This document shows, in pieces, positions 35,530-39,690 of a DNA stretch of 64,000 nt. The DNA lies in the NCBI RefSeq assembly GCF_030345095.1, contig NZ_CP128360.1, positions 5,766,001 to 5,830,000 on the forward strand, in the 5' to 3' direction. This stretch comes from Solwaraspora sp. WMMA2056 (GTDB lineage Bacteria; Actinomycetota; Actinomycetes; Mycobacteriales; Micromonosporaceae). Within the stretch, counting starts at the first letter, position 1; each line of letters starts with the position of its first letter. The notes beneath the pieces were generated by a model. It had not been told where the DNA came from, did not search any database, and saw only the letters and a list, made by a program, of their open reading frames with translations. Position numbers and translations under genes: made by a program.

Positions 35530-35606
35530 AGAGTCACACCGTAACCCGGCCGCGCACCGAACCTCGCTTTTCCGGGCCGTGTCCCGGGCACACGCTGCTG
35601 CACGGC

Positions 35607-35657
35607 TGTGCCACCATTGCCGGTCGGTGCCCTGTGCCACCATTGCCGGTCGGTGCC
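35607..35657. repeat. 26-bp direct tandem repeat between ftsK and ybjN genes
   Basis: Two adjacent copies (35607-35631 and 35633-35657, 25 identical bases each, spaced by one base) of a unit starting tgtgccaccattgccggt. Further downstream, 35720-35760, cccgccaccgcgac is also repeated. This is the divergent promoter region of ftsK and the YbjN-Hsp90 operon. Confidence 0.85.
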
Positions 35658-35780: not shown

Positions 35781-36251
35781 ATGTCCCCGCCGGACCCAGA
35801 CGACCTGCCGGACGCGCCCGTCGGTGGCGGCGAGATGCAGGTGCTGCGGCCACTGACCACCGAGTTCATCGCCGAGACGCTGCAGGCCCGGGAGTACCGG
35901 TTCCAGACCGACCCCGACGGTGACCTGGTCGGCCGATGGAACGACAACGTCATCTACTTCTCCCGCCTCGGCCCGCACGGTGAGGTGCTGCGGGTGCGGA
36001 CCATCGCGGCGACGGCGTTCTCCGTGGACGACGTGCCGGCGCTGTACGCGTTCTGCAACGAGTGGAACCACGACCGGCTGTGGCCGAAGACCTTCGTCCA
36101 CGTCGACGACGACGGCACCGCACGGGTCTGCGGTGAGCTGATCACCGATCTGGAGCGCGGCGTCACCCCGGCCCAACTCGACCACCTGGTCAGCTGCGGG
36201 ATCTCCACCGGATGCCAGGTCGCCGAGGCCGCCGCCGAGCTGGCGACCTGA
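35781..36251 (+). CDS. YbjN-domain protein (first gene of Hsp90 operon)
   Basis: 156-residue soluble protein of the YbjN family, whose fold resembles type III secretion chaperones. Core residues ~25-150: [37 protein letters not shown] and [17 protein letters not shown]. The ATG has AGAGGAA upstream. The same FCN-WNHDRL-PK pattern recurs at the C terminus of the third gene, so the two are paralogues. Followed after 5 nt by an Hsp90 gene, suggesting a cochaperone, adaptor or client-recognition role; this is inference. Confidence 0.85.
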
Positions 36252-36256
36252 CCGAC

Positions 36257-38119
36257 ATGGAGAACCGATTCCAGGTCGACCTGCGCGGCATCGTCGACCT
36301 GCTCAGCCACCACCTGTACGCCAGCCCCCGGGTCTTCGCCCGGGAACTGGTGCAGAACGCCACCGACGCGATCACCGCCCGCCGCGACGTCGACCCGGAC
36401 TGGTCGGGTGGATCGGTACGCATCGAACCGACCGCCGACGGCGGGCTGCGGGTCCACGACGACGGCATCGGCCTCACCGAGCCCGAGGTGCACTCCTTCC
36501 TGGCCAGCGTCGGACGGACCTCCAAACGCGACGAGCTGGGCTTCGCCCGGCAGGACTTCCTCGGCCAGTTCGGCATCGGCCTGCTGTCCTGTTTCATGGT
36601 CGCCGACGCCGTCGAAGTGGTCACCCGGTCGGTGCGGGGCACGGCGGCGGTGCGGTGGACCGGGTACGCCGACGGGCGCTACACCACCGAGGTCGACCCC
36701 GACGCGCGCGCCGAGGTCGGCACCACCGTCACGCTGCGCCCGCGCGCCGGTGCCGAGCACTGGCTCGCCGCCGGCCAGGTCCGCGAGCTGGTCAGCGGCT
36801 ACGCACACCTGCTCGACGTACCGGTGTGGTTCGCCGCGCCCGACGACGGGGTCGCGCCCGACGACGGGGCCACGGCCGGTGCCGGAGCGGTGCGGCTGAC
36901 CGAGCCGCAGGCACCGTGGGAGCGTCCGTACGACGACCCGCAGGCCCGCCGCGACGCGCTGCTCGACTACGGCACCACATTGCTCGGCGCGCGGCCGATG
37001 GACGTGATCGACCTGCGGGTGCCGGAGGCCGGCCTGGTCGGGGTCGGGTTCGTCCTGCCGTCGGCGGCCACCGTCGGCCAGGGCGGGCACCGGGTCTACC
37101 TGAAACGGATGCTGCTCAGCGACAACGCCGGCAAACTGCTGCCGGAGTGGGCGTTCTTCATCCGCTGCGTGGTCGACACCGCCGTCCTGCGACCGACCGC
37201 CAGCCGCGAGGCGCTCTACGAGGACGACCTGCTGGGCACCGTCCGGGAAAGCCTCGGCGAGCAGGTACGCGACTGGTTGCTGCAACTGCCGGTGCACCAC
37301 CCGCAACGCCTGGCCGCGTTCCTGCGGGTGCACCACCTCGGCGTCAAGGCGCTCGCCGTGCGCGACGACGACATGCTGCGGCTGGTCGACTCCTGGCTGC
37401 CGTTCGAGACCAGCCGGGGCCTGATGCCGCTGCGGGCCTTCCGCCAGCACCTGGCGATGATCCGGTACGTGGAGACGGTCGACGAGTTCCGCTCGCTCGC
37501 TGCCATCGCCTCCGCCGCCGGTACCCCGATCGTCAACGCCGGCTACGCCTACGACGCCGAGATCCTGCACCGGCTGCCCCGGCTGGACCCGGCGGTACGC
37601 ACCCGTCGGCTCGACCCGGGTGAGCTCGCCGCCCGTCTGGAGACCCTCTCCCCCGGGCAGTTGGCCGCCGCCGCCGACTTCCTGGCGACCGCCCACTCCG
37701 TACTGGCCGACCTGGACTGCGTACCGCAGTTGCGGCAGTTCGACCCGGTGACCGTGCCCGCTCTCTACGTCGTCGGCCGGGCCGCCCAGGAGCAGGACAG
37801 CATCCGACGTGGCCGGGAAGGCTCCGACGAACTCTGGTCCGAGGTGCTGTCGGCGTTCGCCGACGTCGACGTCGACCACCGCCCGGAGCTGGTGTTCAAC
37901 TGGCGGCATCCGCTGATCCGCCGGTTGGCCGCCGTACCGCAGTCCCCGGCCCTGCGGCACGCCGTCGAAGCGCTCTACGGTCAGGCGCTGCTGGCCGGGC
38001 ATCACCCGTTGCGTGCCGTCGACAGCGCCGCGCTGAACCGTTCCTTCCTGGCCCTGCTGGACCGGGCCTTCACCGACCCGGCGACCGGGCCGGGCACCCC
38101 CGCCGAGGAGACCCCGTGA
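36257..38119 (+). CDS. Hsp90-family (HtpG-like) chaperone
   Basis: A 620-residue GHKL-ATPase chaperone. N domain: ELVQNATDAI with Glu30 and Asn34, ATP-lid glycines in HDDGIGLT (~67-74) and FGQ-FGIGLLS (~102-111). Middle domain with YLKRMLLSDN and RPTASREALYEDD; helical C domain. It is divergent from standard HtpG, closer to the actinobacterial 'HSP90 family protein' group. A 6-residue tandem repeat APDDGV/APDDGA sits at ~193-204. The ATG at 36257 is chosen because MENRFQVDLRGIVDLLSHHLY fits the family; its stop overlaps the next gene's GTG. Cytoplasmic. Confidence 0.93.
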   Translation: MENRFQVDLRGIVDLLSHHLYASPRVFARELVQNATDAITARRDVDPDWSGGSVRIEPTADGGLRVHDDGIGLTEPEVHSFLASVGRTSKRDELGFARQDFLGQFGIGLLSCFMVADAVEVVTRSVRGTAAVRWTGYADGRYTTEVDPDARAEVGTTVTLRPRAGAEHWLAAGQVRELVSGYAHLLDVPVWFAAPDDGVAPDDGATAGAGAVRLTEPQAPWERPYDDPQARRDALLDYGTTLLGARPMDVIDLRVPEAGLVGVGFVLPSAATVGQGGHRVYLKRMLLSDNAGKLLPEWAFFIRCVVDTAVLRPTASREALYEDDLLGTVRESLGEQVRDWLLQLPVHHPQRLAAFLRVHHLGVKALAVRDDDMLRLVDSWLPFETSRGLMPLRAFRQHLAMIRYVETVDEFRSLAAIASAAGTPIVNAGYAYDAEILHRLPRLDPAVRTRRLDPGELAARLETLSPGQLAAAADFLATAHSVLADLDCVPQLRQFDPVTVPALYVVGRAAQEQDSIRRGREGSDELWSEVLSAFADVDVDHRPELVFNWRHPLIRRLAAVPQSPALRHAVEALYGQALLAGHHPLRAVDSAALNRSFLALLDRAFTDPATGPGTPAEETP

Positions 38120-39690
38120 GCCCCGAGGAGCTGATCCAGGCACTGGACGAGGCGACCGACCTGCCCGACGGCGACGGCAAGATCGCCGAGCTGGAACGCA
38201 TCGCCGCGCACGCCGACGCGGCCGGGCAGACCCGGATCGGATTCGACGCCCGGATGGCGTTGATCGACACGTACAACAACCACACCGAACGGTGGCGGAT
38301 GCTGCCGGCGTTCGGCTGGTGCCTGCGCACCTTCGACGAGCACCCTGAGCTGTTCGAGGGGTGGGACGCCGAGCTGCTGCGCTGGTACCACAAGTGGGCG
38401 GTCGCCACGTTGCGCAGCACGCCGCAGGTCGGCCTGGCGCAGACCCAGGCGGCACTGGACGATCTGGAGCGCCGGTTCACCCGCGACGGGCAGAGCCTGC
38501 AGGCGGTCTACAACCTGCGCTGCCGGATCGCCGACCATGTCGGTGACACTGAGCAGGCCCGGCAGTGGCTGGACCGGTGGCGCACCGCGCCCCGCGACGT
38601 CAACAGCGACTGCGCCGGCTGCGATCCGTCGCGGCAGGCCGAACTGCTGGCCGACTGGGGCGAATGGGAGCAGGCGATCACGGTCGTCGAACCGGTGCTC
38701 AGCGGTGCGCTGGGCTGCACCGAACAGCCGGAGAAGGCCCTGGTCGCGGTGATCATGCCGTACCTGCGTCTGGGCCGGTACGCCGAGGCGGCCCAGGCGC
38801 ACGTACGCGCCTACCGGCGGCACCGCCACGAACGGGACGCCTTCCCGTACCTCGCCGACCATCTGCGGTTCTGCGCGTTGACCGGCCACCACGAGCGGGG
38901 TCTGGCGATCCTCACCGAGCACCTGGAGTGGTTCGACCGGCCCTACGACGACGCGTCGGCGATGGAGTTCGCCGCCGCCGGTGCCCTGATCTGCCGGCTG
39001 GCCGGCACCGCCGGATCCGGTGCCCGCACGGTGCACCGGCCCGAGCACGGCCAGCGACCGGCCGCAGAACTGACCGTCGACGAGCTCGGCGCGCTACTGA
39101 CCGAGGCCGCCACCGAGCTGGCCGGCCGGTTCGACGCCCGCAACGGCACCGACCACCAGTCCCGGCGGATGGCCGACTGGCTGGCCGCCGAACCGCTCAC
39201 CGACTGCGTCGAGCTGCCCGCCGACCAGCCGGCCAGATCCGGGTACGTCGCCGAGGCGGTGCCCGCCGAAGGCACCCCGGACGTGGTCGCACCGTTGACG
39301 TTGGAGGGCATCACCGCGGCGCTCAACGAACGCGGCGACCGGTACTTCGTCGACGACGACGGTGTGGTCGGCGGCAAGTGGGGCCGGGCGGTGATCCACT
39401 TCGAACGCCTCGGTGAGCAGCGGGAGATCCTGCACACCCGGATCATCGCGGAACGGCGGCTGCCGGCCGGCCGGCTGGCCGAGGCGTACCAGTTCTGCAA
39501 CGCATGGAACCACGACCGGCTGCTGCCGAAGGTCTACGTGCACGACACCGGTGAGGGTGAGCTGATCCTGGCCGGCGACGTCAGCACCGACCTGGAGCAC
39601 GGCGTCAGCGGCGCGCAGCTCGCCGTACTGGTCAACGCGGCGATCCTGACCGGAGCGGGCTTCGCCGACGCCGTCGCCGAGCTGCCCTGA
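38116..39690 (+). CDS. Helical-repeat protein with C-terminal YbjN domain
   Basis: 524 residues in two parts. Residues ~1-330 are a solenoid-like all-helical region rich in TPR-type pairs (e.g. RQAELLADWGEWEQAITVVEP, LGRYAEAAQAHVRAYRRHRH) with CAGC near 173. Residues ~393-524 are a YbjN domain with FCNAWNHDRLLPKVYVH, clearly related to the first gene of the operon. GTG start overlaps the Hsp90 stop by 4 bp. TPR repeats are classic Hsp90 partners in eukaryotes, but bacterial Hsp90 lacks the MEEVD tail; an interaction is inferred from the operon only. Confidence 0.85.
   Translation: MSPEELIQALDEATDLPDGDGKIAELERIAAHADAAGQTRIGFDARMALIDTYNNHTERWRMLPAFGWCLRTFDEHPELFEGWDAELLRWYHKWAVATLRSTPQVGLAQTQAALDDLERRFTRDGQSLQAVYNLRCRIADHVGDTEQARQWLDRWRTAPRDVNSDCAGCDPSRQAELLADWGEWEQAITVVEPVLSGALGCTEQPEKALVAVIMPYLRLGRYAEAAQAHVRAYRRHRHERDAFPYLADHLRFCALTGHHERGLAILTEHLEWFDRPYDDASAMEFAAAGALICRLAGTAGSGARTVHRPEHGQRPAAELTVDELGALLTEAATELAGRFDARNGTDHQSRRMADWLAAEPLTDCVELPADQPARSGYVAEAVPAEGTPDVVAPLTLEGITAALNERGDRYFVDDDGVVGGKWGRAVIHFERLGEQREILHTRIIAERRLPAGRLAEAYQFCNAWNHDRLLPKVYVHDTGEGELILAGDVSTDLEHGVSGAQLAVLVNAAILTGAGFADAVAELP

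Follow-up and report, generated by a model that had tools for sequence, protein, structure and literature searches.

The window analyzed here, a stretch of 64,000 nucleotides (nt) from Solwaraspora sp. WMMA2056 (NZ_CP128360.1, positions 5,766,001 to 5,830,000) in a genome of 7.01 Mb on one contig, contains three consecutive + strand genes. Judging from open reading frames and their translations, these encode a stand-alone YbjN-domain protein (YbjN1), an Hsp90-like protein and a partner protein in which a helical domain resembling tetratricopeptide repeats (TPR), named TPRN here, precedes a second YbjN domain (Table 1). A preliminary description of this locus had proposed three tightly coupled genes forming a dedicated Hsp90 machine. 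The coordinates confirmed the coupling, with 5 nt separating the first two genes and the last two overlapping in GTGA, but comparison with other genomes showed that the conserved unit is the Hsp90-TPRN pair and not the trio with YbjN.

Table 1 Features of the YbjN-Hsp90-TPRN locus (positions within the window).
Feature	Position	Strand	Evidence
YbjN1, stand-alone YbjN-domain protein, 156 amino acids	35781..36251	+	Pfam PF10722, 88.7 bits
5-nt spacer, YbjN1 to Hsp90 gene	36252..36256	+	Coordinates
Hsp90-family ATPase, NF010683 (PRK14083), 620 amino acids; Bergerat motifs and middle-domain SRE arginine present	36257..38119	+	
Partner protein, 524 amino acids, TPRN domain and C-terminal YbjN; GTG start overlaps Hsp90 TGA stop (GTGA)	38116..39690	+	
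TPRN, conserved TPR-like domain of about 345 amino acids found downstream of NF010683 Hsp90 genes	38149..39174	+	
Partner residues F66, W90, K93 and W94, candidate Hsp90 contact	38311..38397	+	Kept with Hsp90, mostly lost without
Partner C166, C169 (CxxC) and C201, possible metal or redox site	38611..38718	+	
Partner C-terminal YbjN domain	39271..39687	+	Pfam, 65.5 bits

The Hsp90 of the window matched the NCBIfam family NF010683 (PRK14083, "HSP90 family protein", a name silent on any partner) with 767 bits over residues 1-607 (cut-off 455) and is a member of it, whereas its 170 bits against canonical HtpG (NF003555) fell below the cut-off of 371. A separate strong HSP90 match lies elsewhere in the same genome (C1:2.255 Mb). 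The window protein is a second Hsp90 type, distinct from the HtpG of the genome; the preliminary description had called it divergent. Among 24 aligned Hsp90 sequences, E30, N34, D68, G70, G72, G103, G106, G108 and R317 were invariant and T156 nearly so, and the ATP-site motifs and the middle-domain arginine also aligned with TRAP1; we take these residues to represent the Bergerat ATP site and the catalytic arginine. The family profile (3-577) aligned to E. coli HtpG (9-611) with 254 bits, so that N-terminal, middle and C-terminal domains are all present. The alignments point to a full-length Hsp90 with conserved ATP-site and catalytic-arginine residues, for which an ATPase and clamp cycle can be predicted. 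The family itself is already known as NF010683 and is probably the Group C HtpG that Chen et al. (2006) described as a second, divergent bacterial Hsp90 beside the ordinary HtpG (PMC1525184). That account lists Streptomyces coelicolor with two HtpG copies (HTPG2, 615 amino acids), said to fall in different groups, and differs from the present one in that the portion of its text consulted mentions neither TPR nor tetratricopeptide. No description of a TPRN-type partner of an NF010683 Hsp90 was found in the open-access literature searched.

Loci for comparison included 39 from a scan of named genomes and 27 stretches around Hsp90 matches in an even class sample of 197 genomes. With few exceptions, the gene after the NF010683 Hsp90 carries the same TPRN domain in Actinobacteria and rumen Clostridia. 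In the class sample, TPRN lay directly downstream at 26 of 27 NF010683 places over cut-off (hand count on complete tables) and the Hsp90 was present at 26 of 30 TPRN places, while TPRN adjoined none of 31 weaker, mostly HtpG-like Hsp90 matches (137-197 bits). Across all fetched loci, some of them duplicates, 79 of 83 Hsp90 matches above 400 bits had a TPRN match above 100 bits on the same strand within 3 kb. Two of the four misses are contig ends (L024, L041) and the others are one locus of genome G149 fetched twice (L098, L144). A different TPR protein stands in the place of TPRN there (L098, 8979-9866); no other NF010683 locus fetched at sufficient length lacks TPRN. Paenibacillus has the pair as well, and so does Listeria, where two TPRN genes accompany the Hsp90. 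When the possible start closest to the Hsp90 stop was taken as that of the partner, it lay within 20 nt of this stop in 66 of the 79 pairs, with a 4-nt overlap in 35. Among the 70 largest clusters of neighboring genes only Hsp90 and TPRN span taxonomic groups; besides antisense reading frames and reading frames inside these two genes, the only other candidates were clusters uniting nine Saccharothrix loci with one or two further loci, most of them at a distance of 5-10 kb. A larger conserved operon was rejected, as a third gene spanning groups was absent among these clusters. The adjacency of Hsp90 and TPRN is near-invariant in the Actinomycetota and Bacillota loci fetched.

Trees of 77 Hsp90s (quick method) and 87 TPRNs, with identical rows counted once (79 pairs reduced to 77), share their main clades, and the distance matrices of the two proteins gave a Mantel r of 0.943, compared with a shuffled maximum of 0.176. 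Species history common to both contributes to this agreement. A better control than the overall correlation is provided by the five genomes with two fetched pairs, in each of which every Hsp90 and its own TPRN group with the same system type from other genomes (5/5). These comparisons indicate that Hsp90 and TPRN are inherited together.

TPR matches in the partner of the window were all under the Pfam cut-off, Pfam recognized no three-repeat TPR clamp in TPRN, and a search for solved relatives of TPRN returned weak matches alone, the best to a designed protein (E 9.5e-6) and others to TPR stretches and unrelated chains. The part that follows TPRN is variable. The protein stops immediately in Listeria, Paenibacillus and short clostridial copies, continues into YbjN in the window, extends by 213-683 amino acids (mostly 530-680, with TPR matches in one representative) in other actinobacteria, and by about 340 amino acids in long clostridial copies, one representative of which had no confident family match. 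A constant Hsp90-linked domain joined to an exchangeable module is the anatomy that would be expected of a co-chaperone adaptor.

Both YbjN domains of the locus are members of Pfam YbjN (PF10722, gathering cut-off 22) and are 44% identical over 138 amino acids. Four YbjN matches occur in the genome in total; of the two outside the operon, the one compared was 30-32% identical and has a related NEWNHTR core. The FCN-WNHDRL core, which the preliminary description had singled out as identical in the two proteins, does belong to the closest pair of the three copies compared, but in view of this relative it appears to be partly a family signature. A sequence profile of the YbjN domain found no solved YbjN structures. 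At the NF010683 loci of the named-genome scan and the class sample, YbjN is confined to the window and L004-L008, all of one family, and Phytohabitans and Catellatospora loci carry the same gene set as the window and cluster with it. YbjN is a local add-on to the Hsp90-TPRN pair; as a general core of the system it was rejected, being absent from the fetched NF010683 loci outside the family of the window and persisting where the Hsp90 is missing. Four loci (L212-L215, genera g119 and g123) hold an operon-type YbjN gene without TPRN or Hsp90 in the fetched stretches, L215 ending at a contig end. In the Phytohabitans record L004 (11830-13358), TPRN and YbjN lie in different frames, through a frameshift or an assembly error.

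The family of the window contains three gene orders, namely Hsp90-TPRN elsewhere in some genomes, YbjN-Hsp90-TPRN-YbjN, and YbjN-TPRN-YbjN. We examined 65 YbjN loci: 26 have the Hsp90 in the order of the window, 31 lack it, four lack it and have a split TPRN match, and L212-L215 hold YbjN alone. The Hsp90 is thus missing, with YbjN and TPRN-YbjN retained, in 35 of the 65, a proportion that is no unbiased frequency because the loci were mostly hand-picked from the matches listed. The ftsK gene adjoins 19 of 21 YbjN loci tested in the family, including all nine Hsp90-less ones. In genus g2, 21 of 37 genomes had no NF010683 match over cut-off (hand count), and the Hsp90 was absent between the YbjN genes in all 22 fetched loci. 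Twelve genomes of the YbjN group, 11 of them with a fetched Hsp90-less locus, included ten with a strong HtpG match and two with an NF010683-type gene elsewhere only. The TPRNs of the YbjN group form one clade (100/100) amid Hsp90-linked TPRNs, with Hsp90-containing and Hsp90-less rows interleaved, and the Hsp90-less state takes three label changes in the TPRN tree and two in a 52-row joint tree. Loss of the Hsp90 in place seems likelier than its insertion, given the Hsp90 linkage of the TPRNs around this group and of the Hsp90 clade itself.

Rate and residue counts at these loci leave out the split-TPRN loci L185, L189, L190 and L220 and the four with YbjN alone, and take identical TPRN rows once (57 reduced to 52); the identity comparison used an outgroup of 44 rows, without the long-branch L009 and non-actinobacterial rows, and distance ratios only pairs with a YbjN distance above 0.15. 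Across 23 loci, TPRN identity was 0.77 among Hsp90-containing loci and 0.60 between these and Hsp90-less ones, with little change in YbjN1 (0.71 to 0.65) and YbjN2 (0.70 to 0.63). The median ratio of TPRN to YbjN distance in 52 loci was 0.73 when both members of a pair had the Hsp90, 1.32 when one lacked it and 1.38 when both did. This acceleration of TPRN was confined to the 27 Hsp90-less loci that lack a WxxK motif, with per-locus ratios of 1.10 to 1.50. WxxK was present in 78 of 84 Hsp90-linked and 4 of 32 unlinked TPRNs; the corresponding contingency test (p 6e-17) was not taken as strong evidence, as relatedness inflates the figure. A set of 21 alignment columns was defined by conservation of 82% or more in Hsp90-TPRN loci together with invariance in loci of the YbjN-Hsp90-TPRN-YbjN order. 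Of these columns, 17 are each retained in 90% or more of the Hsp90-less loci; the remaining four are W90 and K93, retained in 13%, and F66 and W94, retained in 32%. Because they are conserved with the Hsp90 and decayed in most loci without it, F66, W90, K93 and W94 are candidate Hsp90-contact residues.

Taken with the conserved pairing, these data make it likely, in our judgement, that the gene after the specialized second Hsp90 encodes a TPR-type co-chaperone dedicated to it. TPRN would dock on the Hsp90 through the surface formed by the four residues, and the ATP-driven clamp would act on clients brought by the C-terminal part of the partner. In the window this client part would be the YbjN domain, with the fold resembling type III secretion system (T3SS) chaperones seen in solved relatives, and it may dimerize with the separate YbjN1. 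Solved members of the family are reported to resemble class I T3SS chaperones, as discussed for AmyR of E. amylovora (PMC5398634), and DR1245 of D. radiodurans binds DdrB (PMC3575483); by analogy, such a fold and such partner binding fit a client-holding module. AmyR and DR1245 share the Pfam family by name with the proteins described here, which differ in that one copy is fused to TPRN and both flank the Hsp90 gene. Since the YbjN pair persists without the Hsp90, it must have further work, either in a second use or by turning to HtpG.

Several observations weigh against this co-chaperone reading. The spread of NF010683 is patchy, with matches over cut-off in 24 of the 197 genomes of the class sample and in one of 148 in a Clostridia sample, namely its center; in the family of the window the figure is 148 of 200. 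EEVD ends none of the 79 Hsp90 tails, and docking in the eukaryotic mode is for that reason not supported. Besides the 35 loci that do without the Hsp90, the YbjN-only tree is compatible with a single origin of the Hsp90-less state. WxxK is absent from six Hsp90-linked TPRNs, and four Hsp90-less loci retain it and are hardly faster (ratio 0.79 to 1.00, versus 0.58 to 0.82 for Hsp90-containing loci). Few residue losses count as independent events. Hsp90-less branches make up 18% of the tree length in the event counts and carry three of four losses each of K93 and F66 (p 0.02 each, uncorrected over 20 sites), and the shares for W90 (2/4, p 0.15), W94 (2/5, p 0.22) and R160 (3/9, p 0.21) are not significant. 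Event-level evidence for residue decay is modest.

Taken further, the preliminary description would make the trio one obligate machine whose Hsp90 needs both YbjN proteins. The YbjN-Hsp90-TPRN-YbjN order of all seven genomes that represent the genus of the window in the family sample (the window and six read from fetched DNA) and of the 26 loci above agrees with such a machine, which we nevertheless consider unlikely, given that YbjN, TPRN and YbjN stay together without the Hsp90 in the 35 loci, the nine of these tested adjoining ftsK like the window, that YbjN is absent from fetched NF010683 loci outside the family, and that YbjN identity is little altered in loci without the Hsp90. The idea of a dedicated Hsp90 with a TPR-type partner is supported, with the Hsp90 and the helical domain of the partner side by side across Actinomycetota and Bacillota and co-inherited, but without the obligate three-protein composition. 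The association of Hsp90 with YbjN genes was found within one family, where it is often broken, and YbjN proteins were not upheld as general or obligate Hsp90 partners.

An improbable alternative would make the Hsp90 the switch ATPase of a defense or signaling system, in which the TPR protein would act as a sensor or as an adaptor for an effector. Patchy spread and variable partner C-termini are compatible with it, as is a distant cyanobacterial Hsp90 relative with a weak TIR-like C-terminal match, which has a TIR gene next to it and a TPR gene close by; chaperone/co-chaperone conflict systems have moreover been described (PMC7159879, concerning MoxR-vWA, with Hsp90 unnamed in the text consulted). 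PADLOC matches were restricted to the N-terminal ATPase part (TmtA and REase_II models) or to TPR repeats, however, and a known anti-phage system was rejected on this ground. The frequent neighbor is ftsK, and Pfam analysis of nine window proteins recovered FtsK, RNase J, a MiaB-like enzyme, a trypsin-like protease and the like, but no effector. It is very improbable that the genes are neighbors by history only, without joint function. Operon adjacency by itself is not proof of interaction and a common species history accounts for some of the agreement between the trees, but the adjacency crosses groups that other neighbor clusters do not span, genomes with two systems keep matched pairs, and it is TPRN, not YbjN, that diverges where the Hsp90 is missing. 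The cyanobacterial relative, an Hsp90-like protein of 877 amino acids on Pseudanabaena plasmid ABRG53a (L103, 7941-10574), has its TIR-like (CAP12/Pycsar) match below cut-off, adjoins a TIR-annotated gene and lies near TPR, vWA and AAA genes.

Eukaryotic Hsp90 has TPR co-chaperones (Hop and others), and the proposed co-chaperone pair resembles these in coupling Hsp90 to a TPR-type protein with an additional, variable module. It differs in the missing EEVD tail and in TPRN not being recognizable by sequence as a three-repeat clamp. A likeness also exists in Proteobacteria (L104, L105 and L106), where an Hsp90-like gene is followed by one for a TPR-like protein of about 765 amino acids with TPR matches mostly below the Pfam cut-off; these Hsp90s differ in scoring 277-293 bits, under the NF010683 cut-off, and their partner aligns weakly to TPRN (hhalign probability 29%). 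A wider proposal, which we consider about as likely as not, is that of a widespread, independently arisen bacterial Hsp90/co-chaperone system, with a Group-C-like Hsp90, a constant TPRN adaptor docking via F66/W90xxK93W94, exchangeable modules for clients (in Micromonosporaceae YbjN, in Streptomyces-like genomes arrays of TPR, in Clostridia the region of about 340 amino acids) and a divergent version in Proteobacteria. The genes of L105 are presumably PA1068 and PA1069, and those of the Listeria record L102 lmo0941-2. In the parts of the literature consulted, PA1069 is tabulated among the proteins enriched with BatR (PMC13411936), a heat study lists it at a log fold change of about -2 (PMC4957987), a value that gives no hint of induction by heat, lmo0942 is merely placed beside fri (PMC3534079), and PA1068 appears as a strain name (PMC9995270). 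The consulted parts of PMC11687934 and PMC8195603 contained nothing on a bacterial Hsp90 partner.

Other features concern the organization of these loci. In the window, the regulatory-site search found no sigma-70-like promoter, and the single terminator-like match, equal in number to the shuffled expectation, falls within the Hsp90 gene. A perfect 26-bp tandem repeat of two copies (window 35606-35657) separates ftsK and YbjN1, and a 20-base exact probe from it had no further match in the genome. Cysteines 166, 169 and 201 of the partner probably serve something other than the Hsp90, because they are retained in all 31 Hsp90-less loci counted. Two or three tandem TPRN genes follow the Hsp90 in nine clostridial loci (L021, L022, L028, L030, L031, L033, L035, L038 and L039), where the first copy lacks the CxxC cysteines (9/9) and the last carries the extra region of about 340 amino acids. 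In L102 (9818-12628), two TPRN-only genes after the Hsp90 are followed by a gene annotated SMI1/KNR4.

E. coli HtpG was described in 2014 as having no identified co-chaperones, in the part of that account consulted (PMC4428384). With an NF010683 Hsp90 accompanied by the same partner in different phyla, whether bacterial Hsp90s have co-chaperones becomes a directly testable question. Natural controls are provided by a locus that occurs both with and without the Hsp90, and by specific residues that decay in its absence.

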